Position numbers and translations under genes: made by a program. From the IMG/VR virus record IMGVR_UViG_3300036651_001159, positions 1 through 21,888 of that record: a stretch of DNA of 21,888 nt; one strand, written 5' to 3'. The notes beneath the pieces were generated by a model. The model was not told the DNA's origin. It worked only from the letters and a program-made list of their open reading frames with translations, and made no database searches. The DNA comes from a virus. Positions 7,328-21,888 of the stretch are shown one piece after another (position 1 is the stretch's first letter; the number at the start of each line of letters is the position of its first letter).

Positions 7328-9499
7328 ATGCTTACTGGCAAGATAGCCCCAGTTCCGCAGAAAGAAATTACTACGGTAGATGTGCCGAATTTCGCAAGCG
7401 GTTTGAATTTGAATGGCGCCCAACAAGCTCCCATTAACGCCATCATCGACAGCAAGGACGTGATGCTGACACCTGACGGCTTCTTGACGCCGCGCCCCGA
7501 TCTTAGCCCTTTCCTGCCAGATACCGTGGACATTGTATACCAAATTTACCCAGTGCTTTGGAACGGGCTGATTTACTACATCACCGCCGACGCCAAAACC
7601 AAAGGTAGCACGAGCGGTCAGATTATCTATTGTAAGGAAGGCGATACGGGTTGGACGGTCGCCGGGGCAGACACGGGCAGCGTCAACACGGTAACGGTTA
7701 ATAACGGCGGCAAACCGAAGTTCATCCGGGTGCTTGACACGGTGCTCATCCTAAATGGCGATAACGGCGACAAGTTGGCCGAGTTGGATTTGTCTACCTT
7801 CAAAGTGAAACAGTATACGGCGATAGCCGACCCGACAACGGCAATGACCGCTGCCGCCAGCGGCGGTATTACCGGCGCGACCAGTTCATCCAGCCCGAAC
7901 GTCTACCCGATTTATTATGCTTATTCTTACACTACCTCTACCGGCGAAACGAACATTTCCCCCATCCTCACCTACTATGTGAGCGACGTGCGCGATCACT
8001 GGGTTGGGCTTAAAGCCACCGGGGGAGCAGCTAATCCCGGTAAGTTAACCTTGACGCGGCCGGGGACAGCACCGACAGGCGCTCAGCACTGGAACCTATA
8101 TATAGCGTTATCTAGCACCGGCGGTACACCATCACTGGATGATATGCTGCAATTGGCTATTGGCCTCGACCTTAATCAGACTACATTTATTGATGACGGC
8201 TCCCTCTCCATTAACCTCGGCGGTTCGGTGCCTACCAACAACTCCACGGACGGCCCGCGCGTTTCCAATGGCATTATTGAGGAGGGCAACCCGATTTTGT
8301 TTGGCGACCGTGATGTGCCACAGAGCATCTGGATTGGCGGGGGCGGCGTTAATGCCTTGAGCTTCAGTTCAGCGCTTGGCGGCTACAAAGCACAGCCAGG
8401 GCTAGGGACAAACTTCTCAGTGACGCAGGTTATTGGTTTCCGCAACGGCCAAGGCATCCCATCCCTCACCGTCTTGTTCAGTAACACACAGGGGCTTGCC
8501 GAACAAGCGGTATTGCAACAGGAGACGGTCAATTACGGCAACCAGAGCTTTACGGTGTGGGGTGTTACCAGCCAGCACTACGGAGCTGCCGGTGTTGCGG
8601 CTCCTCATAGCGCCATTAACTACAACGGCAAATTAGTGTTTATGTCCACTGACGGCGTGATGATGATGAACACGCAGCCACTTCGCCAGAACGTCATCTC
8701 TACCGACAACCTGACCATCAAGACGATGGCGGCCTACATCCAACAGATTAAGAACTCAGCCATGAATGGGATTGTCGGCACCGCTTGGGACAACCGGTTT
8801 ATGCTCACGATGCCAAGCCAAGGCTTCGACACACCACAGCAGATTCTCGTCATGGACGATAACAGTAAGGTACCTGAAAACGACAACAACGGCGCATTTT
8901 ATACCTTTAATATCCCGGCCCAGTGGATTGATATTGTCAGTCCGGCAAATGAGGCAGCGTTTATCTATGTCACTCAGGGCAACCACTCTTACAAATTGCA
9001 ACCAGGCGCGGTTACGGCCGATACTATCGGCGGCGTGCCGACACCGTTCTCAACTAACGCCACCGGCTCGCTCGCACCTATGTATGGCGCAGCGGGGCGT
9101 AATCGCTGGCAGGCGACTGTTCAGACTGTTTTCTACGTTAGCGGTCTTGTCGGTTCTATCACCGTCGGCGTCAATTACCGTAACCAGAACGGCAAGATGA
9201 AGACTAAATCTAAGCCTTATCAGGGTCCGGCATTTGCCCCGACTAAAGGTGGCGGCTGGGGTGATACCCAGTGGACGTATGCCGGGTTCCCGGCCATCCC
9301 TGGCTACGCTGACGCGCCGAAGATTGATACGAGCCAGGTAGCCCTTGCGCCGGTAGACGTGCGTATCCCTCTCCAGATTGATGATATTACCAACGAGGCA
9401 CAGTGGTGGTACATCACCAACGCCGGGTTTAACAACTATAAATTGCGAGTGGTGAGTTACGAAGGTGTTGACCTTGGTGTCCGACCAGATTTGCAATAG
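7328..9499 (+). CDS. Tail nozzle / DNA-stabilisation hub protein (P22 gp10 or T7 gp12-like)
   Basis: A 723-residue, almost entirely beta-stranded protein. Residues 18-64 show the characteristic opening of this group: VDVPNFASGLN, then an Asp-rich strand turn (IDSKDVMLTPDGF) and TPRPDLSPF. In phage nozzle and hub proteins this segment introduces a beta-propeller that describes a path of known values. Repeated short strands with Gly/Asp turns follow, and the C-terminal third has long beta strands (residues about 560-723). Such proteins form the lower part of short tails, bind the adaptor ring, and hold packaged DNA until infection. It sits between the adaptor and portal genes. An AGGA at 7314-7317, inside the preceding gene, serves as ribosome site. 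The family is likely; the exact P22 or T7 type is not decided here. Confidence 0.6.
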   Translation: MLTGKIAPVPQKEITTVDVPNFASGLNLNGAQQAPINAIIDSKDVMLTPDGFLTPRPDLSPFLPDTVDIVYQIYPVLWNGLIYYITADAKTKGSTSGQIIYCKEGDTGWTVAGADTGSVNTVTVNNGGKPKFIRVLDTVLILNGDNGDKLAELDLSTFKVKQYTAIADPTTAMTAAASGGITGATSSSSPNVYPIYYAYSYTTSTGETNISPILTYYVSDVRDHWVGLKATGGAANPGKLTLTRPGTAPTGAQHWNLYIALSSTGGTPSLDDMLQLAIGLDLNQTTFIDDGSLSINLGGSVPTNNSTDGPRVSNGIIEEGNPILFGDRDVPQSIWIGGGGVNALSFSSALGGYKAQPGLGTNFSVTQVIGFRNGQGIPSLTVLFSNTQGLAEQAVLQQETVNYGNQSFTVWGVTSQHYGAAGVAAPHSAINYNGKLVFMSTDGVMMMNTQPLRQNVISTDNLTIKTMAAYIQQIKNSAMNGIVGTAWDNRFMLTMPSQGFDTPQQILVMDDNSKVPENDNNGAFYTFNIPAQWIDIVSPANEAAFIYVTQGNHSYKLQPGAVTADTIGGVPTPFSTNATGSLAPMYGAAGRNRWQATVQTVFYVSGLVGSITVGVNYRNQNGKMKTKSKPYQGPAFAPTKGGGWGDTQWTYAGFPAIPGYADAPKIDTSQVALAPVDVRIPLQIDDITNEAQWWYITNAGFNNYKLRVVSYEGVDLGVRPDLQ

Positions 9500-9522
9500 A
9501 ATGTAAAGCATAAGGATTATAT

Positions 9523-11289
9523 ATGAACGGCCAGAGTTTATCATACGCAAACCCGCAGTCACTCGCTTTAGGCGACGACCCGACCATTTGGGATGCTGAC
9601 CAAGCCCTATCGCTCGTCAATACCACCGGTATCGACATGGGCGCTCTTATTAACGAGTGGAACCTTGCTACCGAGTATGTACGGTTGTATACCCGTGACT
9701 TTAAGTTCCTCGATGATCTTGTAGATGGGGTGCCATTGAACCATGAAAACGGCGCACCGTTCGTTGGCGATACCACACTTGCCGGGCTAGTCCGGTCAAT
9801 TCCTCGTGACAGTCTACAGCAACTTCCCGTTCTCAGTGTCAGTATTAACGGCACCAAGAATTCTATCTCCGCGTTGCTCGCCACCTATCTCTTGAAGCAT
9901 ACCGCGTTTAACGAAGACACATTTGGAAAAGGTCTTTTGAGCACGTTGCAAATCGGCGCGGAGCAAGCGTTAAGCCACGGGTATGCCCCCTTCATGGTCG
10001 CTACCGGAAGTATGTTTAACAATTTCGGTACGACCTTGAAGCTTTTGCACTTCATGGATAGTTGCCCTGAGCCGGGTATCCAAGACCACAACGAGACGGG
10101 ATACGATTATATCGTAGCTAACCTGACGCCGAGCCGGGTACGCAAGATTTTGCGGGCAGCGAAAAACAACCCGGATACCAGTTGGAATATCGCTGGGCTT
10201 GAAGAAGTCCTGGCCTCCACGCCACAATCGACAACCTACTCTATTTATGAAAGCGCTCCCCGCCGTAACCAGCCAGGTGAAGAAAGCGGTCCGACATACC
10301 AATTCGTCACTCGCTACGAGACTGGCCCTGACGCGACCATCGTGACCTTCTGCCCGCAGGTGCGTGAAGTACCGTTACGGGTGATCGACAACAAGAGCAA
10401 GTGGGGCTACCCGCGCGTTATCTACCTCGTTATTGACCCGTCAGCGCTGAACCCATTTGGCGTCTCGCGCGTGCGTCTTGCCAGCCCGAATCAGAACCTT
10501 ATGAACATCTACTATGGCAACATCGCCTCGATGCTCCTGCTTAACAGCAAGCCGCCGATTTTGCAAAAGGGTCGCTTCTCTACCCCGGTTGTGCTTAAAC
10601 AAGGGGCGGTTTGGAAGGCGATTGACGCCAGCGCCAGCGCTGAACTCAAGAACATGGACAACGGTGCGCTTGAACAATTCGTGCCGATGGCCGGGTTCTT
10701 CTCCGGTCAGATACAAAACATCATGGGACGTCCAACTAGCCCAGGCGGTCCAGGGGGCAAGCCGAGCGGCACCGCTCCTGGTGTTGAGGAACAGCAGCAG
10801 TTAATGGGAACGGCCGTCAACCAGATTACGAAAATCTTAGAAAACTTCTTGCGCCAATACGGGCTAGTAGCCCTGGACACGCTGTTGTCTGAGCAAGAAG
10901 GCGAAGAAGATATTATTGTTGACGACGACACGATGGAAGCTATCAACGATCTCGTTCCTGGCACGATTGGCGACAACCATAAGATACACATGGTATGGGA
11001 GCGTTTCTACCAAGACATAGAGGAGTGGAGCGTTGATGTTGAAGTCAGCCTAAGCGCCGACCAGCTCAAGGATAAGAAGCGAGCAGAGATTCAAGACACT
11101 ATGACCGTGTTAGCGCAAATGGCTCCGTCGCTTGGTCCTGACGCCGTACAGAAGGTGCAGCGCCTTAGCGATCTACTCATGCAGGATGCCGCCAACGATG
11201 TCGGTCCCATGCCTCCGTCGGCCGCTCCCGCGCCCGCGCAAGCGGCTGCCCCGATGCCGGTGAACCCGGCAGTCGGCGTCCAGCAATAA
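9523..11289 (+). CDS. Portal protein
   Basis: A 588-residue protein with the mixed helical/beta pattern of portal subunits, which form the dodecameric ring at the DNA vertex. The strongest part is about residues 296-347: YPRVIYLVIDPSALNPFGVS, then a Gln/Asn helix (ASPNQNLMNIYYGNIASMLL) and NSKPPIL. This is the usual portal order of a Pro/Gly strand, a GxS turn, the long clip/stem helix and an NxPP segment. A Pro/Gly loop near 405-425 is followed by a helical crown region, and residues 560-588 are an Ala/Pro/Gln tail. The length suits P22-like or similar portals. AAGGAT at 9512-9517 precedes the ATG by five bases. The scaffold gene follows after one small gene, as expected for a head module. 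Confidence 0.8.
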   Translation: MNGQSLSYANPQSLALGDDPTIWDADQALSLVNTTGIDMGALINEWNLATEYVRLYTRDFKFLDDLVDGVPLNHENGAPFVGDTTLAGLVRSIPRDSLQQLPVLSVSINGTKNSISALLATYLLKHTAFNEDTFGKGLLSTLQIGAEQALSHGYAPFMVATGSMFNNFGTTLKLLHFMDSCPEPGIQDHNETGYDYIVANLTPSRVRKILRAAKNNPDTSWNIAGLEEVLASTPQSTTYSIYESAPRRNQPGEESGPTYQFVTRYETGPDATIVTFCPQVREVPLRVIDNKSKWGYPRVIYLVIDPSALNPFGVSRVRLASPNQNLMNIYYGNIASMLLLNSKPPILQKGRFSTPVVLKQGAVWKAIDASASAELKNMDNGALEQFVPMAGFFSGQIQNIMGRPTSPGGPGGKPSGTAPGVEEQQQLMGTAVNQITKILENFLRQYGLVALDTLLSEQEGEEDIIVDDDTMEAINDLVPGTIGDNHKIHMVWERFYQDIEEWSVDVEVSLSADQLKDKKRAEIQDTMTVLAQMAPSLGPDAVQKVQRLSDLLMQDAANDVGPMPPSAAPAPAQAAAPMPVNPAVGVQQ

Positions 11290-11294
11290 TATGC

Positions 11295-11323
11295 TTGTGC
11301 TTAGTCCTACAAGGTGCTACGAT
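11295..11323 (+). promoter_or_regulatory. Weak candidate promoter after the portal gene
   Basis: TTGTGC (11295-11300) and TACGAT (11318-11323) are separated by 17 bases in the 51-base gap between the portal and the next small gene. Three of six and four of six positions fit the consensus. A transcript from here would start about ten bases before the ATG at 11341, which would explain why that gene has no convincing ribosome site. The match is modest, and read-through from the portal gene may be all that is needed. Confidence 0.2.
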
Positions 11324-11340
11324 TGCAGTACATTAGCATT

Positions 11341-11646
11341 ATGAACAACGACGAAGAAGTACCATACCGCAGTCCGTTTAACTTGAGCCAAGTAACGGAA
11401 GACACCAAATTCTCGAAAGACGAGGAGGAGGAGAGCACTTTACGCCGCGTGTTCAAGCTCTTAGACAGCGCGATGGCCGACCTTGATAAGTGGCACGCAT
11501 TTGACATTGCTGAGAGCGAACTGAAGATAAAGCAACAGATTAAAGCCCATGCGATCGCAGCGGCAATTATTGCGCCATGCCTCGAAGAAGTCCGGCAAGC
11601 GCTAGCAACCGTTGATGAAAAATTTAGACGAAGGAACCAAAAATGA
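11341..11646 (+). CDS. Small helical protein between portal and scaffold, function unknown
   Basis: A 101-residue protein: an acidic, disordered start (about residues 1-30, rich in Asp/Glu) and then two predicted helices, one from STLRRVFKLLDSAMADLDKW and one running through AHAIAAAIIAPCLEEVRQAL, with a basic end (KFRRRNQK). I do not recognise a family. It overlaps the scaffold start by four bases (ATGA at 11643-11646), so it is translationally coupled to it and likely acts in head assembly. I chose the ATG at 11341. An in-frame GTG at 11314 would add nine residues, but its AAGG touches the start codon. Neither start has a good ribosome site. A small-terminase or portal-associated role is possible but not shown. 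Confidence 0.6.
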   Translation: MNNDEEVPYRSPFNLSQVTEDTKFSKDEEEESTLRRVFKLLDSAMADLDKWHAFDIAESELKIKQQIKAHAIAAAIIAPCLEEVRQALATVDEKFRRRNQK

Positions 11647-12764
11647 ACAATGATGCTCTTGCTGCTTTACAAAATGGTGGTGAACCACCGGCACCTCCTG
11701 AAGTGGTAGTGCCTGACGCACCCGTTGATCAGTCTGATAGCACCGGCCAAATGAACGCTGACGACCAAGCAGACGCCGCCGAGTGGGACAAGGCAGCCGA
11801 CAACATATTCCCTGAGCTAAAAAACACTAATGAAGATAAGGATGGTAATGGGAAAACCAAGTCAGGCCAAAACGCTGAAGAAAATGGCACGGGCGAAGAA
11901 GCTGCACAAGGCGAAGATGGCAGCAAAAAACCAGGGTCAGATAACAGCGCACAATCTCAGAAACAAAATGGTGAAGATGGCGAACACGCCACAAAGACAG
12001 GTGATGATAAAGCAGATGGTGGAGATGGAAAAGACGGCGAAAAAAATGATGCGCCTGAACCCACAGACGCTTCTGCCCGCCTTACCGCTAGAGAGCAACA
12101 GGCAGCCGTAGAAGCCGTCAAAAGTGAGATACGGGAGAAGATGTTTAAGGACGTGCCGACCCAGTTGAAGGACGCCGATGGCGACCCGATTCATACTATC
12201 GACGACGTGATGAAGCATAACAACCCGCGCACCGGCCAACCCTTTACCGAGGAGGAAGCCGGATTATGGTTGCTCCAGGCACAGGCACAGCTCCGTGACA
12301 GCGTTAGCCAAATCAACGAGCAGGTGCAGCAGATCGCTGAAACCAACCTGGCTATTAAGGATGAGGCCGACGTTATCAATTATGAATACGGCGAACTGCT
12401 TAGGGCTATGCCGGAAATCCGGCAGCAACTATGGGAGGAGTACTCTAAGACATTCCAAACCGACCCGAAAAGCGGTGTTATCGTCAAAGCGCCGGTGTCA
12501 TTGCAACGGTTCTATGCTGCCGCTTTGGAACCATACGCAGCGCTAGGACGCAGGCTGGAGGCTGATGGGAGTATCCAGACGCCCGCTGCCGCTCAAGCTC
12601 CCCAGCAGCCCCAGCAATCACCACAGGCCCAACAGCAAGCCAAACAGCAACGCCGGGCTGACCGCTCCGACATCTACGCCGCCGGTAAGCTCGATACGGC
12701 GACTGATGAGGAGAAGGAGTGGGGTGCGGCCGCTCAAGCGGTGTTTGGCGATCAATTAAGGTAA
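11643..12764 (+). CDS. Scaffolding protein candidate
   Basis: A 373-residue, highly charged protein directly after the portal region. Residues 1-145 are acidic and disordered, dominated by Asp, Glu, Gly, Lys and Asn (for example EDGSKKPGSDN, KADGGDGKDGEKND). Residues 147-255 are long polar helices (TAREQQAAVEAVKSEIREKM; LRDSVSQINEQVQQIAETNL). The end has a Gln/Ala/Pro run near 315-335 and a basic helix (QQRRADRSD). Long helices, strong charge, low complexity and the portal-adjacent position are the usual signs of an assembly scaffold, which lines the procapsid and is then released. The start overlaps the previous gene, with AAGGAA at 11631-11636. The first third is visibly more A-rich than its neighbours. 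Function is inferred from these properties; no protease domain is seen. Confidence 0.6.
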   Translation: MNNDALAALQNGGEPPAPPEVVVPDAPVDQSDSTGQMNADDQADAAEWDKAADNIFPELKNTNEDKDGNGKTKSGQNAEENGTGEEAAQGEDGSKKPGSDNSAQSQKQNGEDGEHATKTGDDKADGGDGKDGEKNDAPEPTDASARLTAREQQAAVEAVKSEIREKMFKDVPTQLKDADGDPIHTIDDVMKHNNPRTGQPFTEEEAGLWLLQAQAQLRDSVSQINEQVQQIAETNLAIKDEADVINYEYGELLRAMPEIRQQLWEEYSKTFQTDPKSGVIVKAPVSLQRFYAAALEPYAALGRRLEADGSIQTPAAAQAPQQPQQSPQAQQQAKQQRRADRSDIYAAGKLDTATDEEKEWGAAAQAVFGDQLR

Positions 12765-12774
12765 GGAGAAAATT

Positions 12775-13272
12775 ATGGCACTTAAATGGATAAACATTAG
12801 AAGCGGCGAAAAAGTAGTCGCAGAGACGGAACCGCAAATTGCAGGGTTGTGGTCTAGCTCAGACCATAGTCCAAACATCACACAGGGGCAGGATTTCGGT
12901 TGGCGGCTTGCCCCGGAAATTGTCGTGGAAATGAAGAAGATCAAGCAGGACATGGACATGCTAGAGCGCATTGCCCGACGTTTCGGCAAGTCAGTAGACG
13001 ACGTGGTAGAGACGGATATTCTCACCTATATATCCAATAAGACTAAGTTGGAAGAAGCCCCGCAACCTGAAGCCAATCAGTTTGAGGACGAATACGATCA
13101 GCAGATTCGAGCACTTGAAGGCAAAACTGACAAGACGGTTCACGATTTATTCGCTGACGACGAAGGAGCTAAACCGCTTTCTATGATGTCTACCGAGGAA
13201 TTGGCGGCTGAACTAGAGCGTCGTAAAGCCGGTCCAGGGCCTACCACCACTACCACGACGACAACAAAGTAG
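12775..13272 (+). CDS. Unrecognised 165-residue head-region protein ending in a threonine run
   Basis: The N-terminal half looks structured: LKWINIRSGEKVVAE, a WSSSDHSPNITQGQDFGWRL segment, then a helix (EIVVEMKKIKQDMDMLERIA) and RFGKSVDDVVETDILTYI. The second half is acidic and disordered, with the helix STEELAAELERRKAG near 142-156, and it ends in Pro followed by eight threonines and a lysine. The Thr codons are mixed (ACC, ACT, ACG, ACA), so the run is kept at protein level rather than made by repeat slippage. A strong TAAGGAG site at 12762-12768 overlaps the scaffold stop. I recognise no family. Position after the scaffold suggests a minor capsid, head-completion or decoration protein. 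Confidence 0.65.
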   Translation: MALKWINIRSGEKVVAETEPQIAGLWSSSDHSPNITQGQDFGWRLAPEIVVEMKKIKQDMDMLERIARRFGKSVDDVVETDILTYISNKTKLEEAPQPEANQFEDEYDQQIRALEGKTDKTVHDLFADDEGAKPLSMMSTEELAAELERRKAGPGPTTTTTTTTK

Positions 13273-13302
13273 TAAACTATAAGCATTAAACAAGGATTCA
13301 TT

Positions 13303-13548
13303 ATGGAAGACGATAAGACAACGACAACACCAACGACCGAGACGGAAGAAGATACCTCGGCAGCTCCAGAACCAACAACGACAACAACGACAACCTTTAT
13401 GCCGCAATCAGGGCTGGCACAATTTGCTCCGATTCAAACCCACGAGGAACGGATGGCTGATGCACGCGCAACAGCTATGGTGAACTATGCCAACGAAAAG
13501 GGGCTAAGTTCAACCGACCAGAGCACTACTGAAGAAGAAGTCGCTTAA
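13303..13548 (+). CDS. Small acidic protein of 81 residues with threonine runs, function unknown
   Basis: The first third is Thr, Glu and Asp with Pro (DKTTTTPTTETEEDTSAAPE), followed by seven consecutive threonines. A short possible helix (HEERMADARATAMVNYANEK) comes next, and the end is acidic (STTEEEVA). The whole protein is probably disordered. It shares the Thr-run feature with the gene just upstream, suggesting the two are functionally linked or related in their tails. AAGGAT at 13292-13297 precedes the ATG. Its stop codon overlaps the stop of the convergent terminase gene (four bases of overlap, 13545-13548). It is the last gene of the rightward block, and transcription probably ends at the hairpin some 65 bases further on. 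Confidence 0.7.
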   Translation: MEDDKTTTTPTTETEEDTSAAPEPTTTTTTTFMPQSGLAQFAPIQTHEERMADARATAMVNYANEKGLSSTDQSTTEEEVA

Positions 13549-14909
13549 AGATACGGGTTAAATTGCGGCGCGAGATCAATCTTTTCGCTGTCGTAAGTGA
13601 CCTCTTGAGAATCGGGACTGTACAAAAACAGTCCCGTTTTTGGGTCAAATTCCTGGTCAATAGCCGCATACATATAGCGGTGTTCGTCGGCGGCGTGGGA
13701 ATTGGTGTTGTGTTCCGGCCCCATGTAATCACCTGTTATGCCATTAAATTTACGCTTATACATACTCAGTTTCCGGCGCAAATCTTCGGTGGTCGCTTCG
13801 TTGAACTCGGTGTTTGGCGTAGCCGCCACCGCCCGTTTTATGCCTTCCTCTTTCAGTTCCCGGCGCAGGAGACTGGAGTTTGGTAAGCCGAGCTGCCGGA
13901 TTTTCTCGACACGTTCGATAGCATCGCTATCCCGCACCGCACCATCGTGCGGCAGGAAGTGCCACATGATGTTATACGGCTTGCTCTTGACGATAGCCAC
14001 CGTGCTTTCATAGGCGACGTCATGCGTCTCATAATAATCAATTACCCGTGGCCGCTTACTGACGTACTGCCAGAAGCCGACGGCCAACATATCGCTCATA
14101 CCAAGGTCCCAGCTCGTGAAACAGGGGTGTGCCGGGTCGTAGGGGAAGCGGCCGACATTTCCCCGGCGCATACCTAGCATTAGCGCTTCGGCGTAATAGT
14201 TGGTAGCGCTGGCCTGTCCCCAGTCACAGAGGAACTCTTGTCTAAACCAGAAGTCGTTGCCATTACGCGCAACTGTTTCCTCGCGGATGTCATCAAGCTG
14301 TTCTTTTGTCAGGTAGGCATCGGCGGTAACGCGGCTAGCGAACTGCTTGCCGCTACTTTTCATAACGCTTATGGCCCGATCGAACAATAGCTTAAACGTA
14401 CCGCCGGAAATGCCGTCTATCTTTGGCGTAGATTGAATAATAATCTGACCGCCGTTGACCAGCACGATAGGCCGGATAGCGTCAAGCGCTGCTACTGGGA
14501 TGTCTACGAACTCAGAGAAAATATAGATAAAGCCGTTGGCCCCGCGCAAGGCTTCTGGTTCACTTGCGCCAAGCAGGGTAAGCGTCGAGCCGTTCTTCAG
14601 CGTGATGTGCATATCTGTCGGGCTGTTGGTACGCTGCTCAACGAGGCCGCTAGGGATGTGATCGAGCACCGGCATACCATCATTACTAATCGTAGTCCAG
14701 AAGTTATCATACCCCTGCTTCTTTGTCGGCCAGACGATGACCACATTGATCGGCCGCTCCACCATTTTCTTAACGGCATAGGCAAAAGCGGTGAAATCCT
14801 TGCCGCCGCGTCGTGACCAACACCAGACGTTCATTACCGACCCCATGTCTAGGGCGGCCAGCGCTTCGGCTTGGTAGTCGCGTGGGATAAAGTTAAGCGG
14901 TATATTCAT
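13545..14909 (-). CDS. terL: Terminase large subunit (ATPase and nuclease)
   Basis: The 454-residue DNA-packaging motor. The ATPase domain shows a Walker A motif WSRRGGKDF (31-39). The Walker B strand FIYIFSEF (127-134) has Glu133 as the catalytic carboxylate, and a Ser stands where an Asp is usual. The coupling motif QSTP is at 159-162. The nuclease domain of RNase H type shows TSWDLGMSD (Asp268, Asp273), PHDG (Asp322) and HAADEHRY (Asp408). The length is normal for the family. It pumps DNA through the portal and cuts the concatemer. Its ATG shares one base with the stop of the AP2-type gene before it (TAATG on this strand), so the two are coupled. It lies on the strand opposite to all other structural genes, and its last codons contain a terminator that serves the other strand. 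Confidence 0.93.
   Translation of the reverse strand: MNIPLNFIPRDYQAEALAALDMGSVMNVWCWSRRGGKDFTAFAYAVKKMVERPINVVIVWPTKKQGYDNFWTTISNDGMPVLDHIPSGLVEQRTNSPTDMHITLKNGSTLTLLGASEPEALRGANGFIYIFSEFVDIPVAALDAIRPIVLVNGGQIIIQSTPKIDGISGGTFKLLFDRAISVMKSSGKQFASRVTADAYLTKEQLDDIREETVARNGNDFWFRQEFLCDWGQASATNYYAEALMLGMRRGNVGRFPYDPAHPCFTSWDLGMSDMLAVGFWQYVSKRPRVIDYYETHDVAYESTVAIVKSKPYNIMWHFLPHDGAVRDSDAIERVEKIRQLGLPNSSLLRRELKEEGIKRAVAATPNTEFNEATTEDLRRKLSMYKRKFNGITGDYMGPEHNTNSHAADEHRYMYAAIDQEFDPKTGLFLYSPDSQEVTYDSEKIDLAPQFNPYL
13613..13641 (+). terminator. Intrinsic terminator of the rightward block, inside the terL coding end
   Basis: CGGGACTG (13613-13620) and CAGTCCCG (13629-13636) form a perfect eight-base-pair stem with an eight-base loop (TACAAAAA), followed at once by TTTTT (13637-13641). 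The T-run is on the plus strand only, so the signal ends rightward transcription. It lies about 65 bases after the stop of the last rightward gene (13548). The same bases encode the terminase residues KTGLFLYSPD near its C-terminus. Confidence 0.85.
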
Positions 14910-15121
14910 TACTCAATCATCCCCGCGAACATCTGCTCGGCGTTCTTACGGACCTTTATCGCCATCACTTTGCTGGTATACCAACCGAGGTGAATACGGC
15001 GGCTATGGACGGTAATGGTTGCCTGGTAACGGTTTTTCTTCTGGTGGAAGTAGACGCCCGACACGCCTGTTTTACTATCACACCGGACGCTCCGGCTACT
15101 GTAGTCATTTTTGTACCCCAT
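14909..15121 (-). CDS. AP2-domain DNA-binding protein, 70 residues, no nuclease part
   Basis: A small basic protein with an AP2-type fold pattern: SKTGVSGVYF (16-25), RYQATITV (31-38), RRIHLGWYTS (41-50) and the closing helix AIKVRKNAEQM (54-64). This three-strand plus helix module binds DNA. In phages it usually forms one part of HNH homing endonucleases, but here no HNH catalytic part is present before or after it. The gene is first in the leftward unit and coupled to the terminase gene by TAATG, the slot where a small terminase is often found. It could be a regulator, a packaging-site recognition protein, or the remnant of a homing endonuclease. The ribosome site is weak and the promoter candidate is so close that the message may be nearly leaderless. 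Confidence 0.75.
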   Translation of the reverse strand: MGYKNDYSSRSVRCDSKTGVSGVYFHQKKNRYQATITVHSRRIHLGWYTSKVMAIKVRKNAEQMFAGMIE

Positions 15122-15132
15122 CGTTACTCTGA

Positions 15133-15141
15133 ATTATGCCA
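15133..15141 (-). promoter_or_regulatory. Candidate extended -10 promoter for the leftward AP2-terL unit
   Basis: On the minus strand TGGCATAAT forms a TGn-extended -10 element (hexamer at 15138-15133), preceded by an A-rich tract (complement of 15144-15154). No good -35 is seen at 17 bases. Transcription would start near 15126, leaving about five bases before the ATG at 15121, consistent with the weak ribosome site there. Support is the motif and the divergent spacer only. Confidence 0.35.
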
Positions 15142-15151
15142 CCTTTTTTGT

Positions 15152-15181
15152 TTGTAGTACAGCGGTGAAAGCGATTATGAT
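15152..15181 (+). promoter_or_regulatory. Candidate promoter for the capsid block
   Basis: TTGTAG (15152-15157), an 18-base spacer and TATGAT (15176-15181) lie in the 115-base divergent spacer before the major capsid gene. Four and five of six positions match the sigma70 consensus. A start near 15188 would give a leader of about 50 bases that begins at the inverted repeat described at 15188-15208. The capsid gene needs strong expression and has no upstream gene on its strand for about 1.7 kb, so a promoter must be near. Confidence 0.45.
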
Positions 15182-15187
15182 TAAAGC

Positions 15188-15208
15188 GTAAACAATAATA
15201 TTGTTCAC
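15188..15208. promoter_or_regulatory. Inverted repeat in the divergent spacer (operator or leader hairpin)
   Basis: GT-a-AACAAT, the three-base centre aat, then ATTGTT-c-AC: eight of nine positions in each arm pair. The AT-rich palindrome lies between the two divergent units and directly downstream of the capsid promoter candidate. A dimeric regulator binding there could block that promoter, or the RNA could form a short stem that protects the 5' end of the capsid message. It is not followed by a T-run, so it is not a terminator. No second copy was noticed in the window. Confidence 0.4.
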
Positions 15209-15236
15209 TATTAAATAATAGAGAAGGTATAAACAT

Positions 15237-16151
15237 ATGGCATGGTCATACGGCACAAAAACCGCGAATATAATGGACATCCCGTTGCATATCAGCAGCG
15301 TGGTTGCCCCCTATCTTGGCGATAACGGTTACAAATGGGACGGCGTGAACTCAGTTCGCGTTCTGTCAATCGCTGATGGCACACTCAGCAACTACGATGA
15401 AACGAACGCTTCTACGCCATTCGGCGCAGCTTCGCTAGTTGTACCTAACGAACAAGTGCTCCAGCTCGCTTATAACAAATCAATGCTGCTCCGCATCCAG
15501 CGCACGCAGATTCAAGACATCCCAGTTGGTCAGTTCGCAAAGCAGGTTGCTTTGCAGCAAGCTAACGACGTTTTCGTTCCTGCACACGACGCTTACTCAC
15601 TCGCTAAGATTTGGGCAGCTCGGCCAGCAGGCAATATCATTGCCCTCGATACGACTGACCCGACGGGCGGCAACCAGATTCCTGGTTACGCGCTTTCGTT
15701 CAGCAAGATGGTCAGCAAGTCACGCACCTACAGCGGTGGTAATGTATCCAACCTCATCGCTTGGGTATCATACACCTTCAAGGATACGGCCGGTGCACAG
15801 ATTAACTTCACTGGTTCTCAGACTGGCTACGCTGCCGGTAAGAACGGCTACCTCGGCAAACTCGCAGGTGTACCTTGCGTAGAAATCCCTGATAGCTACC
15901 TGTTCCCAGGTGTCCTCGCAATGGTTGTTGACAAGCGTGCTGTCATCAATGTCACACCAAAGATGGACCCGAAGGCTGGCGGTATGGTCATTGTCGACCC
16001 AGTTCCAGGCTTCAGCGGTATCGAAATCCAGCTCCGCGACCGAAGCGACACATTTGTACTCAACCAAAAAGTCAACTCAGTTGCCTCACTTGAAAACGCT
16101 GCAAGCACGACTGCAAGCACAACCGCTACGACTGTCACCGCTGGCGCTTAA
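15237..16151 (+). CDS. Major capsid protein (HK97-fold type)
   Basis: A 304-residue protein forming the capsid shell. It has the expected order: a short N-terminal arm, ASLVVPNEQVLQLAYNKSML, a spine-helix region (VGQFAKQVALQQANDVFVPA), then NGYLGKLAGVPCVEIPDSYL, the G-x-G-x-x-x-G-x-P pattern typical of the P-domain strand of these proteins. A strand-rich C-terminus follows, with DPVPGFSGIEIQLRD. Codons are well chosen and regular, and the gene has its own spacer with a promoter candidate and AAGG at 15224-15227, all signs of strong expression. The last 20 residues are an Ala/Thr/Ser tail (STTASTTATTV), probably flexible and exposed. It follows the divergent spacer rather than the scaffold gene, because the terminase module is inserted between them. 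Confidence 0.88.
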   Translation: MAWSYGTKTANIMDIPLHISSVVAPYLGDNGYKWDGVNSVRVLSIADGTLSNYDETNASTPFGAASLVVPNEQVLQLAYNKSMLLRIQRTQIQDIPVGQFAKQVALQQANDVFVPAHDAYSLAKIWAARPAGNIIALDTTDPTGGNQIPGYALSFSKMVSKSRTYSGGNVSNLIAWVSYTFKDTAGAQINFTGSQTGYAAGKNGYLGKLAGVPCVEIPDSYLFPGVLAMVVDKRAVINVTPKMDPKAGGMVIVDPVPGFSGIEIQLRDRSDTFVLNQKVNSVASLENAASTTASTTATTVTAGA

Positions 16152-16171
16152 TCCTAGTTAGGACCGGCACC

Positions 16172-17053
16172 ATGAAAGTGATATTGGCGCAGCCCTCTAT
16201 CCCCCGATTCCAATGGGAGCTAGAGGTGCTGCTCACCAATATCCGGCAGTTCACGGATATGGAAGTAGTGTTACTGTTCAGTAAGCCACATGACTATAAC
16301 AGCGCCGTACCTCCTTACTTGGTCCACAAGTATATGGGGGTACGCGCTTTTGTATACGAGGATAGGCGGTTTGACAAGAGTTACATCCCCGCTATCCGAC
16401 CGTACTTATGGTGGCAGTATTTAAGCAAAGACCCGGCACGAGAGCGGGAATCGTACTTTTACATTGATAGCGACGTGATTTTCCGTGAGTGGCCCAAGGT
16501 CAGTCAGTTGTCAGTTGACGCGAAGCACTGGGCCGGAAGCGACTGCGGTAGTTATATCGATTACAACTACATCAAGCAGTGCGAACGCGGGCCAGAGATC
16601 ATCGAGCGTATGGCACGCATCTGCAATATCACGCCGCAGCAAATGATCGGCGTACCAGGTATCGGAGCACATCTTGTCATTGCTCAACCGACGGCTGAGA
16701 TGTGGGAGAAAGCCTACAACCGCAGCCTCACTATTTGGCACTACTTCGATGGCGTGCATAGCAATATCCAGAAGTGGACGGCCGAAATGTGGGCGCAGCT
16801 CTGGACCATGGTAGAAGCGGGTATCACGCTAACCGCCCCAAAGGAACTGGATTTTTGCATGTCTACCGACCCGATTGAGAAATGGGACCGAGTAAAGATT
16901 TTGCACAATTCAGGCGTCACGGAGGATACTGGCAAACTGTTCTTCAAGGGCAAGTACCAATCAAGCGTGCCGTTCGGGGAAGACTTCAGTTGGGTTGACC
17001 AAACAAAGTGTTCGCACAGGTATGTCGATGCGATTGAAAGAGTGTTAATATAA
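16172..17053 (+). CDS. Putative GT-A type glycosyltransferase
   Basis: A 293-residue soluble protein with a glycosyltransferase outline: a beta-strand start (MKVILAQPSIPRF), an alternating helix/strand first half, then YFYIDSDVIFREWP with the DxD motif (Asp99, Asp101) that binds a metal and nucleotide sugar. The second half has GVPGIGAHLVIAQPTAEMW (159-177), a Trp-rich acceptor region, and ILHNSG with His245, similar to the C-terminal metal or substrate residue of such enzymes. There is no signal peptide or membrane segment, so it acts in the cytoplasm. It is 20 bases after the capsid gene with no terminator between them, so it is probably co-transcribed, and it is followed by tail genes. It may modify a virion protein; modification of phage DNA or host surface sugars is possible. 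The enzyme class is fairly clear, the acceptor unknown. Confidence 0.75.
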   Translation: MKVILAQPSIPRFQWELEVLLTNIRQFTDMEVVLLFSKPHDYNSAVPPYLVHKYMGVRAFVYEDRRFDKSYIPAIRPYLWWQYLSKDPARERESYFYIDSDVIFREWPKVSQLSVDAKHWAGSDCGSYIDYNYIKQCERGPEIIERMARICNITPQQMIGVPGIGAHLVIAQPTAEMWEKAYNRSLTIWHYFDGVHSNIQKWTAEMWAQLWTMVEAGITLTAPKELDFCMSTDPIEKWDRVKILHNSGVTEDTGKLFFKGKYQSSVPFGEDFSWVDQTKCSHRYVDAIERVLI

Positions 17054-17069
17054 CCATAAGGATTATGAG

Positions 17070-17849
17070 ATGGCTGATTATCAATATTTAGAGGCAAGCA
17101 ACGGGAGCGGGGACGCGTCCCTAATGCACGTTCAAAGCACCCGATCTATCGGGGGGACTGTTATCAACGTTGATAGCGTCGTCAATGTACCGGCCAAATT
17201 TATCGCCACACAAGGGACGCTACTGAGTACAGGATTTATTGACCCCACAACCAAGTGCGACTTCAAAGGCCACGTCTCCGGCACGACGCTTGTTATCGAC
17301 GGTTTCGAGCCGGGCAGCACCGACACCGGTAGCGCGTCAGGTCAGGTGATTATTATTAAACCGAACACGATATGGGCTAACCTCGTCGCCAGCTTCATTA
17401 TGAACGCTACCGGCAACGGGACACCGGAAAACCATACCGTCGCGCAGCTTGCAGCTACCGACGTGACCACGGGTACTTTAGAAGTCTCTGGAGCGGCCAC
17501 CTTTAGCGGGAACGCAAGTGTGGCGGGAACCTCTTGGCTCGTCGCACAATCGACTGCTACCATCAACGGCAGCGGCCAAATCATACCAGTTAGCCAGGTG
17601 TACCGTGTCACCGCGCTAGCGGGGGCTGCTACTATCCTCACGCCTACCTATACACCGCAAGACGGCATGACCGGCGAACTCCGCATCTACGATAACGGCA
17701 CCGCGCAATCCTTAACATGGGCAACCGGTTGGAAGGGTATCGGCGTTACATTGCCGACAACGACTACCGTGGGCCAGTTCATTTATGTTTCATACGAGTA
17801 CAGTGCAGTTGACAGCAAGTACCACGTTCTGAGCGTGGCGAGGGGGTAG
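17070..17849 (+). CDS. Beta-rich tail or appendage protein, 259 residues
   Basis: The N-terminal 110 residues carry a pattern I associate with phage appendage proteins: STRSIGGTVINVDSVVNVPA, a LLSTGFIDPTTK strand, FKGHVSGTTLVIDGFEPGST and GQVIIIKPNTIWANLV. The middle is a short linker with SGAATFSGNAS repeats. The C-terminal 85 residues (from about 175) form another domain that reads as a tip or trimerisation module, with TPQDGMTGELRIYDNGTAQS, WATGWKG and a closing VDSKYHVLSVARG. No enzyme motif is seen. AAGGAT at 17058-17063 precedes the ATG, and the next gene follows after six bases. It probably attaches to the neck or baseplate-like part of the tail. The specific role is not determined. 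Confidence 0.6.
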   Translation: MADYQYLEASNGSGDASLMHVQSTRSIGGTVINVDSVVNVPAKFIATQGTLLSTGFIDPTTKCDFKGHVSGTTLVIDGFEPGSTDTGSASGQVIIIKPNTIWANLVASFIMNATGNGTPENHTVAQLAATDVTTGTLEVSGAATFSGNASVAGTSWLVAQSTATINGSGQIIPVSQVYRVTALAGAATILTPTYTPQDGMTGELRIYDNGTAQSLTWATGWKGIGVTLPTTTTVGQFIYVSYEYSAVDSKYHVLSVARG

Positions 17850-17855
17850 TGCACC

Positions 17856-18557
17856 ATGACAGTAACCTTCGGCGGCTCGGCAGGCGGCTATTTTACTCTC
17901 CATGCTGACGTAACTGAAACTGCGGTCAATACCGGCGCTAACACTTCGACCGTTCATTGCCACGTTTATATCACTTGTAGCAACAGCGGCACCGGCGTCT
18001 ACGATCTATCCGGCGCAGCGAGTTGGTCAGCGACCGTCTCAGGCAATACTCAGTCGGGGCATTTTACCTATGACGAGCGCGGTAACACCAACACGATTGA
18101 TCTAGGCAGTTTTGATACGACCGTAGCCCATAACTCTGACGGCACCGGTTCTGCCGGTTACAGCGCAAGCGCCAATATGGACAACTCACCGTATGTCACC
18201 ACGGCTAGCGGCGGTGGCACCCTAACGCTTACTACTATTGCCCGTTACGCAGTCATAGACGGCGGCCCAAACATCAATGATTGTACCGACGAATGGATTG
18301 AGTTCGCATGGCACGCCGACCGAAGTTGTGATTACTATACTTGGTGGAGCACGGCTTACGATGGGGGCGGCCATCACGACACACCAACCAGCGGGCAGGG
18401 GTGGTGGATTATCGACCTGCATAATCTGAAATCGAATACGCAATATGACATCACGGTGGGAATACGGAACGCCGCCAGCGGCTTATGGACATTCAGCAGT
18501 ACGGTATACACGACAACGAAAAGTCAAAATAACTTCATACGGGGGAGGACGTTATGA
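17856..18557 (+). CDS. Beta-rich minor structural protein (DUF859-like)
   Basis: A 233-residue protein made of Gly/Thr/Ser-rich strands: FTLHADVTETAVNTGANTST, then a strand pair ending SGHFTYDERGNTNT, and TTVAHNSDGTGSAGYSASAN. This order (a long strand with N-T-S-T-V, a Y-D turn, then AHNSDGTGS) is that of a phage minor structural family, often found in receptor-contact proteins of tails. The last 90 residues are aromatic-rich (EWIEFAWHADRSCDYYTWW), resembling a fibronectin-like or carbohydrate-contact domain. A GAGGGGG run in the end of the previous gene serves as ribosome site. Its TGA overlaps the next ATG by four bases (18554-18557). It probably faces the outside, but a receptor cannot be named. 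Confidence 0.6.
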   Translation: MTVTFGGSAGGYFTLHADVTETAVNTGANTSTVHCHVYITCSNSGTGVYDLSGAASWSATVSGNTQSGHFTYDERGNTNTIDLGSFDTTVAHNSDGTGSAGYSASANMDNSPYVTTASGGGTLTLTTIARYAVIDGGPNINDCTDEWIEFAWHADRSCDYYTWWSTAYDGGGHHDTPTSGQGWWIIDLHNLKSNTQYDITVGIRNAASGLWTFSSTVYTTTKSQNNFIRGRTL

Positions 18558-18934
18558 GTGAAATTTTGTCGTGGGCGGCAGGCATTATTGCGGTAACAGG
18601 AGTTGTTACCCTATTCATGGCTTCGTTCAAAGGTAATTTAAGCCAAGATACTATCAAATTGCTACAAGACAACCGGGGGGCACAAGACGCTGCCATTAAG
18701 CGGTTGGAGGAGGCAGATAAGGAAAAGACTGAGCAAATCTCCAACTTAAACGGTCAAATCCAAACCCTTAAAGATGTCCCGTTGGCACAAATAGCGAAAA
18801 GCATGGAGATGGTCAGCGCGACCCACATCGAGTTACAGCAGTTTCTTAAACAGCACCAAATTCAGGCGCAAGTTTTAGCCGACGGGATTGCTGATAAGGT
18901 GATACAATTCTTAAAGGATAACCATAATGTCTAA
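18554..18934 (+). CDS. Membrane-anchored coiled-coil protein (possible holin-like), 126 residues
   Basis: One hydrophobic segment near residues 5-25 (LSWAAGIIAVTGVVTLFMAS) is followed by a polar, heptad-like helix region (about 28-70, with LLQDNRGAQDAAIKRLEEAD and QISNLNGQIQTL). A second helical part runs to the end. No signal-peptidase site is obvious, so it likely stays in the inner membrane with the helix in one compartment. A single N-terminal span with a long coiled coil is seen in some phage holin-like or lysis-accessory proteins encoded among tail genes, but no endolysin is in view. A strong GGGGGAGGA site (18541-18549) lies four bases before the ATG, inside the preceding gene, and the next gene starts eight bases before its stop. 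Other membrane or tail-assembly roles are equally open. Confidence 0.6.
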   Translation: MSEILSWAAGIIAVTGVVTLFMASFKGNLSQDTIKLLQDNRGAQDAAIKRLEEADKEKTEQISNLNGQIQTLKDVPLAQIAKSMEMVSATHIELQQFLKQHQIQAQVLADGIADKVIQFLKDNHNV

Positions 18935-19316
18935 CGTCATAGAATTTCCAAGAGGCGACGCGATAACGCATACATTTTCCATACCGCAAACGGCATGGAG
19001 TTCAGGCGGCAAGCTTATCTTTGAGGCGAAACCAGCAATCGACGACGACAACACAGATGCCGCCGCAGTCATTAGCCAGGAATGGACAGACGCCTCCACG
19101 TCAGTCGTAACGATTAACGGCATCCAATACATCCAATACGCTTGCGCTTTCCCCCCAAGCGCTACGAATAGTATCCCCAGCAACGGTGCCGACAGCGCTA
19201 CCTATAAAGGTGAATTCCAGTGGGTCAACGCGGCAGGGGTCCCTACCACCTACCCACCGAACGACCCGAAACTACCAGTAGTAGTGTACTTCGACGTGGT
19301 TAGAAAGACGACGTAA
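18927..19316 (+). CDS. Small beta-sandwich tail protein (BppU N-terminal-like)
   Basis: A 129-residue protein with an N-terminal domain of the kind seen at the base of receptor-binding appendages: FPRGDAITHTFSIPQTAWSS, GGKLIFEAKPAIDDDNTDAA and AVISQEWTD, then an end with YKGEFQWVN and VVVYFDVVRKT. This R-G-D-x-x-x-x-F start with an F-x-A-K-P strand and acidic D-D-D/N-T-D turn is usual for small proteins that sit between tail and spike. AAAGGAT at 18913-18919 precedes the ATG. Only one base separates its stop from the tailspike start, so the two are coupled and probably assemble together. The assignment is by pattern; no fold prediction was made. Confidence 0.55.
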   Translation: MSNVIEFPRGDAITHTFSIPQTAWSSGGKLIFEAKPAIDDDNTDAAAVISQEWTDASTSVVTINGIQYIQYACAFPPSATNSIPSNGADSATYKGEFQWVNAAGVPTTYPPNDPKLPVVVYFDVVRKTT

Positions 19317-19317
19317 T

Positions 19318-21786
19318 ATGGCAGATATACTCGTTAGCAGTGAAAGCGGCACTCAAGCTATCATTCAGACTGCCACACCAGCCGCTATCGTAGTGGAGGG
19401 AGTGCTTAAAGGCGCCCCCGGCGCTATCGGACCACAGGGAATCCAAGGGGTTCAGGGAATCCAGGGCGTGCCTGGTTCGAGATGGTACGAGGGCACGGGC
19501 GCTCCAACCACCACCTATAGCAACGGCGACTTATACTTAAACACAACCACCGGCGACATTTACCAACAGGCTGCCGGAGCCTGGGGCAGCCCAATTGGTA
19601 ATATCGCAGGACCAGCCGGCCCAGCCGGACCAACTGGCCCAGCCGGACCAACTGGCGCAACCGGCCCCCAAGGCCCGGCTGGCGTTGGCGTGCCGATCGG
19701 GGGAACTACCGGCCAGGTCCTGGCGAAGAACTCGAATACTAACTACGACACCGGCTGGACCAGTTCCAGCTCGATTCCCAGCGGCAGCGCTGGCGGCGAC
19801 CTCACCGGCGCTTATCCAAACCCGACGCTCGACCTCACCAAAGCCCACACCTGGACGGCCAGCCAGACGCTGCCACTGATTGACGCCGGCGGCCAGGTCC
19901 TCAACGTCTTCGCTTACGGGGCCAAAGGCGACGGCTCGACCGATGATTCGACGGCCATTAATAGCGCCCTGACCGCCGCTGCCGTCGGTGACACCGTGCT
20001 CCTCCCCGCCGGTCACATCTATAGCATCGCCCACCAGTTGGTAGTGCCGCCCTACATCACCCTCCAGGGCGGCCACGGCAACCGTACCGACAATACCCAG
20101 CTCAGCACCACGCTCCGCCCGACCGCTGGCTTTACCGATGACGCGGCGATCCGCTTCAAGGACAAGGAAGAAGCCGGCTATGCCGTGGAGAATGAAGGTA
20201 TCCGCATCCGCAACCTGACGATTGACATGTCACTGACCGCCGGCACCATCTCCGGGATCAAGGCCAGCGGCTACGTCCACGGCGTGGTCCTCGATAACGT
20301 CTGCGTCCAGAAAGCGCCGTACCGGGGCTTCTACTGCACCACCTACACCCGCCTCAGCAGCGTCACCTACCATCCCTACTCCTGGAACGTCTGGAACTGC
20401 TTTGCCTGGCAGTGTGGCGATGTCGGCTTCTTCTTCGGCAACCAGCAGGCCGACATGACGCTGGTCAACTGTGAGGCCCTCGGCTGCACCGGCAACGGCT
20501 TCGAGCTGACCTACTGCGCCAACAGCCACTTCATCGGCTGCCGGGGCGAGTGGTGCAACAACGGCTTCCACCTGACCGGCTCCTGGGGCACCGGCACCGG
20601 CTCCGGCGGGGCGTTGTTCACCGATTGCTCGACCGACCGCAACACCTTAAATGGCGTGCTGATCGACGCCACCGGCAACACCCCGATCCTGTTTATCGGC
20701 CTGATGACCCGCCGCGATGGCCGCAACGCCAAGCTCGGCGGTGGCGGTTACGCCGGGGTAAAAGTCAGCGCGGCGACCGTCCCGGTGGTTATTAACGGTA
20801 TCACCTGCTACCCAGGGGTCGATGACGACGGCACCGGCGTCAACTCGCCGGACTACGGTTTCACCGCCAGCGGCAGCACCTCGGTAGTGATCAATTCTGG
20901 GTACCTACAGGGCCAAGTGGCCGGCTATAACGACGGTGGCACCAACACCGTGCTGCGACGGGGGATGAACCTCATCACCGCCACCGGCGCGACCTCCGCC
21001 CCGACGATTGCCACCTCTAACCCCTGGAATACCAACGGCAACGGCACGATTGCCCTGAATACCGCTGACCAGGCGGCGCTGTCGATTACCAACTCGGCCG
21101 GCAACACCGGCCTGTCGCTGATTGATGTCACCGGCTCGGCCAATACCTCGCGGATGCTCGATGGCCAGGTGACTGGCGACACCACCCGCCGCTTCGATCT
21201 GCGGGTTGACGGGCAGATGCAGTGGGGTCCAGGTAGCGCCAGTCGGGACACCACGCTGGCTCGGTCGGGCGTCGGGGTCCTGGCCCTGACTGGCGGCCTG
21301 ACCATCTCTGCCCCCGGCACAGCCGCCGGCTCTGCCGCCACGATTGACGGCACCCAGACGCTGACCAGTAAGACGATTGCGGCCGGCAGCAACACAATTA
21401 CCGGCCTGGGCGTCTCCAACCTCGGTGGCGTCTCCGGCACCCCGAGCTCAACCACCTACCTGCGCGGTGACGGCACCTGGTCAACCCCGGCCGGCGGGAG
21501 CGGTTCGGGCATTACCCGTTCCGTCGCCTCGATTTCCACCGCGACGACCGCCGGTTCGAGCGCGGTCACTGACTATGTGTACCTGGTGTCCGGCACGACC
21601 ACCTTGACCCTGCCGACTGCCGTGGGTAATTCCAACTGCTACACCGTCAAGAACGTTGGCACCGGCACCGTCACCATCGCCACGACCTCAGCCCAAACCA
21701 TCGATGGGAGCGCCTCTGCCAGCCTGCCGGTCAAGTACACCAGCGTAGATTTAATATCCGACGGCGCTAACTGGAACGTCGTCTAA
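19318..21786 (+). CDS. Tailspike with collagen-like repeats and pectate-lyase-type beta helix
   Basis: An 822-residue receptor-contact protein. In order: an N-terminal virion-attachment part (1-31); a first collagen-like G-x-x stretch (about 32-54); a module with WYEGTG, DLYLNTTTGDIYQQ and W (55-98); a second collagen-like stretch (98-123); a linker; and a pectate-lyase superfamily start VFAYGAKGDGSTDDSTAINS (197-216). A right-handed beta helix follows to about 560, then repeat-like strands with LRGDGTWSTP (about 713-722) and a tip domain ending in SDGANWNVV. Such proteins are trimers that bind and often cleave surface polysaccharide; the active site cannot be read from sequence. No good ribosome site is seen, so translation is probably coupled to the previous gene. 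From about 19600 to 21740 the base composition is distinctly richer in G and C than elsewhere, suggesting a domain exchanged from another source. Confidence 0.82.
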   Translation: MADILVSSESGTQAIIQTATPAAIVVEGVLKGAPGAIGPQGIQGVQGIQGVPGSRWYEGTGAPTTTYSNGDLYLNTTTGDIYQQAAGAWGSPIGNIAGPAGPAGPTGPAGPTGATGPQGPAGVGVPIGGTTGQVLAKNSNTNYDTGWTSSSSIPSGSAGGDLTGAYPNPTLDLTKAHTWTASQTLPLIDAGGQVLNVFAYGAKGDGSTDDSTAINSALTAAAVGDTVLLPAGHIYSIAHQLVVPPYITLQGGHGNRTDNTQLSTTLRPTAGFTDDAAIRFKDKEEAGYAVENEGIRIRNLTIDMSLTAGTISGIKASGYVHGVVLDNVCVQKAPYRGFYCTTYTRLSSVTYHPYSWNVWNCFAWQCGDVGFFFGNQQADMTLVNCEALGCTGNGFELTYCANSHFIGCRGEWCNNGFHLTGSWGTGTGSGGALFTDCSTDRNTLNGVLIDATGNTPILFIGLMTRRDGRNAKLGGGGYAGVKVSAATVPVVINGITCYPGVDDDGTGVNSPDYGFTASGSTSVVINSGYLQGQVAGYNDGGTNTVLRRGMNLITATGATSAPTIATSNPWNTNGNGTIALNTADQAALSITNSAGNTGLSLIDVTGSANTSRMLDGQVTGDTTRRFDLRVDGQMQWGPGSASRDTTLARSGVGVLALTGGLTISAPGTAAGSAATIDGTQTLTSKTIAAGSNTITGLGVSNLGGVSGTPSSTTYLRGDGTWSTPAGGSGSGITRSVASISTATTAGSSAVTDYVYLVSGTTTLTLPTAVGNSNCYTVKNVGTGTVTIATTSAQTIDGSASASLPVKYTSVDLISDGANWNVV
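19612..19683 (+). repeat. Tandem repeats encoding the second collagen-like segment
   Basis: An 18-base unit (CCAGCCGGACCAACTGGC) occurs twice in perfect tandem at 19621-19638 and 19639-19656, flanked by degenerate nine-base versions. Each nine bases codes for G-P-A or G-P-T triplets in frame. Similar but less exact repeats (GGAATCCAAGG / GGAATCCAGGG) at 19439-19467 encode the first collagen-like part. Repeat copy number could change by recombination and alter spike length. Confidence 0.8.
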
Positions 21787-21796
21787 AGGAGAAACT

Positions 21797-21888
21797 ATGA
21801 GTTATAACCCCGTCAACCCCAATGGCCAAACGACCAAAGCCAATAGCGCCCCCGTCACACTCGCTAGCGACCAGGGCGCACTGACCGC
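21797..21888 (+). CDS. Start of another appendage protein (3' truncated)
   Basis: The first 30 residues of a gene that leaves the window: MSYNPVNPNGQTTKANSAPV followed by TLASDQGAL. The pattern NPNGQ-x-x-x-ANSAPV-x-LASDQ is a very common opening of phage structural proteins found next to tail fibres. AGGAG at 21787-21791 lies five bases before the ATG. The gap to the tailspike stop is ten bases, so it belongs to the same unit. Nothing can be said about the rest. Confidence 0.7.
   Translation, partial: MSYNPVNPNGQTTKANSAPVTLASDQGALT

Follow-up and report, generated by a model that had tools for sequence, protein, structure and literature searches.

How can a transcription unit be brought to an end where the next gene is inverted and leaves it no room? 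The question is posed by the window, a viral record of 21,888 bases analysed here at its full length, in which a run of rightward genes meets the oppositely oriented gene of the terminase large subunit, terL (13545-14909, minus strand; phrog_2, E 9e-28). The run, on the plus strand, includes a portal-like gene (9523-11289; named for its position and size, without PHROG match), a scaffold-like gene (11643-12764; named for its place in the gene order, without family match), a gene for a 165-aa protein that is kept as a neighbour in both synteny classes described below (12775-13272; weak PHROG match only) and, as the last member, a gene for an 81-aa protein (13303-13548; homologues in L003, L018, L020 and L021). 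Both of these proteins contain threonine runs, the 165-aa one towards its end (13230-13272) and the 81-aa one in its first half (13315-13400). The stops of terL and of the last rightward gene have four nucleotides, TTAA, in common, so that no spacer separates the two convergent genes and the inversion of terL leaves no intergenic room for a terminator. Upstream of terL, the leftward unit also holds a small HNH-like gene (14909-15121, minus strand; phrog_99, E 5e-13), and a divergent spacer (15122-15236) separates this unit from the major head protein gene (15237-16151, plus strand; phrog_422, E 5e-5), which opens a second rightward unit. Farther along, 19318-21786 encodes a long protein whose early part contains collagen-like GPQGIQG repeats and which is probably tail-fibre-like, the label being a guess.

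A candidate signal lies inside terL itself. On the plus strand, a 9-bp GC-rich stem formed by CGGGACTGT (13613-13621) and ACAGTCCCG (13628-13636) encloses the 6-nt loop ACAAAA and is directly followed by five T residues (TTTTT, 13637-13641), which correspond to the A run of CCA-AAA-ACG on the terL strand. The hairpin (13613-13636) begins 64 nt downstream of the stop of the 81-aa gene, lies 68-91 nt inside terL as measured from the end of the terL stop, and is antisense to the codons ACG-GGA-CTG-TTT-TTG-TAC-AGT-CCC-G (T-G-L-F-L-Y-S-P-D). An initial annotation had placed a hairpin within the end of terL, next to overlapping convergent stops without a spacer, and this placement was borne out; its stem and T5 tail were also as described, except that eight of the nine pairs had been recognised. 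In GC content, length and loop size the stem is of the kind expected of intrinsic terminators (GC-rich, about 7-9 bp, short loop). The minimum free energy of the RNA from 13603-13651 (49 nt) is -20.6 kcal/mol compared to -8.3 +/- 2.2 for shuffled versions (z -5.7), and none of 200 shuffles folds as well as the native sequence. When the terL protein is held fixed and codons are drawn from the gene's own usage, an equally strong hairpin in the last 55 codons is rare (p = 0.005). Among all terminator-like sites on both strands of the window the hairpin ranks strongest; in 8000-21888 there are no more such sites than chance would give (13 against 15.3 expected), and the case is therefore built on the strength of this hairpin and on the comparison with relatives. 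An Rfam search of the window gave no match above the gathering score. Folding, the terminator scan, covariation and the codon null together make it very probable that the element is a one-way intrinsic (Rho-independent) terminator of the rightward portal/scaffold operon, embedded antisense in the 3' end of terL.

Relatives were collected by terL searches, which returned 16 loci at first and then 62 loci with alignment, in addition to one contig of a Candidatus Saccharibacteria MAG. The neighbouring genes occur in the same order in two layouts that differ in the direction of terL. In class A (35 loci, 32 distinct) terL is inverted relative to the portal-like, scaffold-like and capsid genes, and in class B (23 loci, 21 distinct) it is colinear with them. 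Inverted terL is seen in the window, L018-L035, L043, L056, L061-L067 and L070-L073, and colinear terL in L036-L042, L044-L055, L057, L059, L075 and L076, with the same neighbours in both sets. The codon null and the peptide comparison covered 53 of 67 sequences, the window included. Near or exact copies (L031, L038, L040, L062, L078), truncated terL genes (L060, L068, L069, L074), a broken frame (L058) and distant relatives that lack the neighbours (L015, L016, L017, L077) were dropped; L002 and L004-L013 are represented by later, longer loci that cover the same places. The interrupted copy (L058:802-2140) has an in-frame break in terL and a weakened stem, and is either a decayed copy or a sequence error. 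One of the dropped copies (L078:8407-9726) shares its exact terL with L064; its 17-kb contig was assigned by binning to Candidatus Saccharibacteria, a lead to the host or possibly a binning error. In a terL tree of 58 rows, class B forms one clade (95/84) and class A falls into two parts, A1 (20 distinct) and A2+A3 (8+4 distinct), the rooting by four distant relatives being unsure because of their long branches. A second tree, of 19 rows, was built without the hairpin residues.

A hairpin with a T-rich tail is present at the homologous place in 27 of the 32 distinct class A phages, among which the window is counted, namely in 19/20 of A1, 8/8 of A2 and 0/4 of A3. The one A1 member in which the site is lost, L025, which stands outside the 19-row A1 alignment, has, 20-45 nt from the terL end, a different hairpin that is likewise strong and followed by a T-rich tail (p 0.0025). 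A hairpin is missing from the homologous register in all 21 distinct class B phages, a comparison that the initial annotation had proposed for relatives with terL placed otherwise. Hairpins elsewhere were found in three of them (L042, -15.0; L047, -10.1; L055, -10.9 kcal/mol); that of L055 lies near the homologous place, is non-significant against the codon null and pairs, by eye, in a different register. A covariance model built on the 19 aligned A1 loci, which match by construction, was searched across 64 sources. It recovered three of the 8 A2 loci at E < 0.02 and one at E 1.5, matched no A3 locus and, among the colinear loci, hit only L055 near the homologous place, weakly (E 3.8). The orientation of terL and the presence of the hairpin agree except in A3, and since the tree implies only about one change of orientation, the contrast between inverted and colinear phages counts as one event and not as 53.

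The same picture emerges when each protein is kept and its codons are redrawn from the gene's own usage. Hairpins are stronger than this null at p < 0.05 in 20/20 A1, 7/8 A2, 0/4 A3 and 2/21 B loci, with p <= 0.04 in all 20 of the A1 and in the seven A2 loci; the weak A2 locus is L014 (p 0.20). Convergence is shared by the whole of class A. With the convergent frame chosen mechanically as the longest ORF ending within 80 nt, it overlaps the terL stop or comes within 2 nt of it in 32/32 loci. The four A3 phages (L056, L064, L067, L072) have an inverted terL and a 17-nt convergent overlap, and no stem at the place. A scan of their terL genes with up to 700 nt on each side found rightward sites in L067 only, namely one at 1172 nt into terL (-11.0 kcal/mol) and a second, weaker, past the terL start. 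Convergence thus does not always require a terminator. Relatives with the same gene order and no stem had been named in advance as evidence against the reading; these four are such relatives, set beside the 27 of 32 that keep the stem. They may be compared to the convergent genes of Rickettsia, which often end without a defined site (PMC3027695).

If the helix is functional, its arms should have changed together. With the first base of the Thr codon taken as position 0, pairs were indexed by the sum i + j. All 19 aligned A1 loci and four of the eight A2 loci follow i + j = 25, and the other four A2 loci (L014, L066, L071, L073) follow i + j = 23. Across the 19 A1 loci, 97.7% of 171 pair cells can pair, compared to 66.0% after shuffling and 33-45% when the arms are slid by 1-3 positions, a slide control that leans towards the counted structure because this was derived from the same sequences. 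Cells changed on both sides number 49 (18.3 in shuffles) and the covariation score is 0.789 (0.211 in shuffles); neither these two values nor the paired fraction was reached by any of 500 shuffles. Two further counts are unexceptional: 99 of the 500 shuffles reach the 7 pairs changed on both sides, and 111 reach the 14 further pair types. RNAalifold proposed the same helix unprompted. Individual pairs have switched identity: pair 2-23 is C-G, G-C or A-U, pair 3-22 is G-C or U-A, and pair 5-20 occurs as five types. Parsimony on the tree without hairpin residues, whose deep forks are weak, requires at least 6 changes at pair 2 and at least 8 at pair 5.

A sceptical reading of these patterns would be that no selection on RNA is involved and that a conserved peptide motif and codon bias yield the hairpin by chance. 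The region TG.F.Y.. is indeed partly conserved in colinear relatives without the hairpin. The codon null keeps the proteins and is therefore a separate test of the structure, and here register 25 is informative, as it joins third codon positions to third codon positions in three pairs (2-23, 5-20 and 8-17). Judged by the letters of the sense strand, these wobble positions pair in 54 of 57 cases, compared to 25.0 +/- 3.5 and a maximum of 36 in 2000 same-protein draws, and counting G.U in the rightward RNA the score rises to 57/57. Over all nine pairs, 158/171 cells pair, compared to 116.8 +/- 5.4 and a maximum of 133 in 2000 such draws. The comparison of related terL genes that the initial annotation had proposed thus shows both arms co-varying, synonymous sites included. 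Together with the coupled Gly/Pro and Cys/Gln residues considered next, the same-protein draws leave the sceptical reading practically no credence, and chance or codon bias is ruled out as a source of the hairpin. Comparison of the loci shows selection on the pairing and on the U tract, acting at synonymous sites as well as by way of coupled amino-acid replacements.

The coupling at the amino-acid level stems from pair 3-22, which joins the first base of a Gly or Cys codon to the second base of a Pro or Gln codon. Ten of the 19 aligned A1 loci encode Gly..Pro and nine encode Cys..Gln, and mixed combinations are absent. The tree without hairpin residues implies at least 3 changes between the two states, or fewer in view of its weak deep forks. 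Among the A2 loci, the members without the Pro (L014, L071, L073) carry Ser-Gln, Ser-Leu or Thr-Leu and pair in register 23, that is, shifted by two bases. As both residues of Gly..Pro and Cys..Gln change in concert, the TerL protein seems to have been shaped by RNA pairing. It is likely that the pairing of the antisense terminator drove these paired replacements, and that what looks like coevolution within a protein would reflect transcription termination and not a protein contact.

The strand on which the element acts can be read from two asymmetries. The eight bases after the stem contain on average 5.6 T in the rightward direction and 2.2 T in the terL sense (19 A1 loci). The rightward tail holds 5-6 T of 8 in every one of the 19, as expected of the U tract of an intrinsic terminator, and the low T count in the terL sense means that the A tract before the stem that would mark a bidirectional terminator is not found in these loci. 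The Lys, Glu and Gln codons in the tail end in A in 33 of 33 cases (14.3 expected). In addition, 10 cells form a G.U pair when read as rightward RNA but an A.C mismatch when read as terL mRNA, compared to one cell in the reverse situation; the loop-closing pair holds six of the ten and the single reverse cell, and without it the count is 4 to 0. Both asymmetries fit a signal in the rightward transcript, and they support the earlier proposal that the hairpin works on the plus strand only. The element might instead act in the terL mRNA, by translational pausing or frameshifting, or as DNA, in the form of a packaging-site or protein-binding palindrome. Its location in terL, the palindrome that is necessarily present in the DNA as well and a slippery-looking C-CCA-AAA before the stem in the window could be taken in this sense. 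Such a role is very unlikely and is disfavoured by the G.U cells, by the T tail on the rightward side only and by the absence of the hairpin at the register when terL is colinear; the arm sequences, moreover, change freely, which leaves no fixed binding sequence. Frameshifting at the slippery site was rejected, the heptamer being missing from most relatives.

The structure and its strand would suit a second function of the same RNA equally well. The hairpin could mainly serve to stabilise or process the 3' end of the rightward mRNA, by blocking exonucleases or marking the point to which the transcript is trimmed, with termination elsewhere, for example Rho-dependent and downstream. Such an element would lie on the same RNA strand and at the same place after the last stop, and the structural evidence fits both roles; the U tract, however, is kept separately from the stem, as the tail codons indicate, and a pure stability hairpin would have no need of it. 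We regard this function as improbable compared to termination. With a terminator, RNA polymerase would read about 95 nt past the rightward stop into terL, the hairpin and U tract would be made in the rightward RNA and the polymerase would be released. Rightward polymerases would thereby be kept from running through terL, and antisense RNA to terL would be confined to its last ~97 nt. The initial annotation had described a dual-use sequence, a description that the comparison supports, with termination as its predicted outcome.

A predicted stop at this position raises the question of how the capsid operon beyond terL is transcribed. It probably has its own promoter in the divergent spacer between terL and the capsid gene, where the window holds the candidate TTGTAG-18-TATGAT, ending 55 nt upstream of the capsid start. 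Of the 29 loci compared, 19 have a best promoter-like site whose end lies 47-58 nt upstream of this start; the position alone is common to them, as the scores are not above those of shuffles (mean 8.6 vs 8.0, 29 loci). By eye, the divergent spacer contains ATTATGCCACC in members with the HNH-like gene and CTATTGC in many others. The window, L003 and L018-L021 carry that gene between terL and capsid, and the window's copy as query was unmatched in the other relatives. A search for phage RNA polymerase (PF00940) in 14 records gave no match, and neither did the control search. No conserved terminator in the opposite direction, for the leftward terL transcript, was found within 1.5 kb. The layout may be read as a first rightward unit, a terminator in the opposing terL, the leftward terL unit, divergent promoters and a second rightward unit.

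An inverted gene within a run of co-oriented genes is also the hallmark of non-contiguous operons, and terL has this position. According to a review, such operons occur in phages too (PMC7154746). The hairpin could then be an attenuator or leaky terminator that sets the ratio of partial read-through, antisense to terL, into the capsid gene. The matching layout, a single opposite-strand gene inside a run of rightward genes, and the four A3 phages without a terminator at the junction would agree with this possibility. The stem is, however, strong in most loci, and read-through is not obviously needed given the recurrent promoter-like sites before the capsid gene. An attenuator is improbable, if slightly less so than a stability element, and a conserved terminator would, unlike a non-contiguous operon, cut the long transcript short at the inverted gene.

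As a one-way terminator, the phage element can be placed among known systems. It shares with intrinsic terminators the GC-rich perfect stem, the short loop, the adjoining U tract and the position immediately downstream of a unit's last gene, and differs in lying wholly inside the coding sequence of a gene on the opposite strand and in being kept by codon and amino-acid covariation. Ju et al. 2019 reportedly described bidirectional terminators between convergent genes. Terminators in this location, often bidirectional, are also reported in PMC7566282. The phage element likewise sits at the meeting point of two convergent genes, but is one-way, poor in T in the terL direction, and intragenic rather than between genes. 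Transcript 3' ends inside the coding sequence of a convergent neighbour, with excludon-type overlap, are known as well (PMC7154746); in the part of that source available to us, no covarying hairpin conserved across a phage group is described. In the literature searched, which covered few subscription journals, we found no terminator that is kept by covariation in an opposing viral gene and coupled to its amino acids.

Judged by sequence comparison, the locus is a clear example of a transcription stop signal and a protein that occupy the same bases on opposite strands and that both adjust in evolution. The phages with inverted and with colinear terL provide a built-in comparison of why the signal is needed. 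Co-varying protein residues can stem from RNA pairing on the opposite strand, which is a warning for the interpretation of such residues. The finding further suggests that terminator searches confined to intergenic DNA miss selected sites. For compact phage genomes, a terminator of this kind would be a way to place the end of an operon where a spacer is absent.
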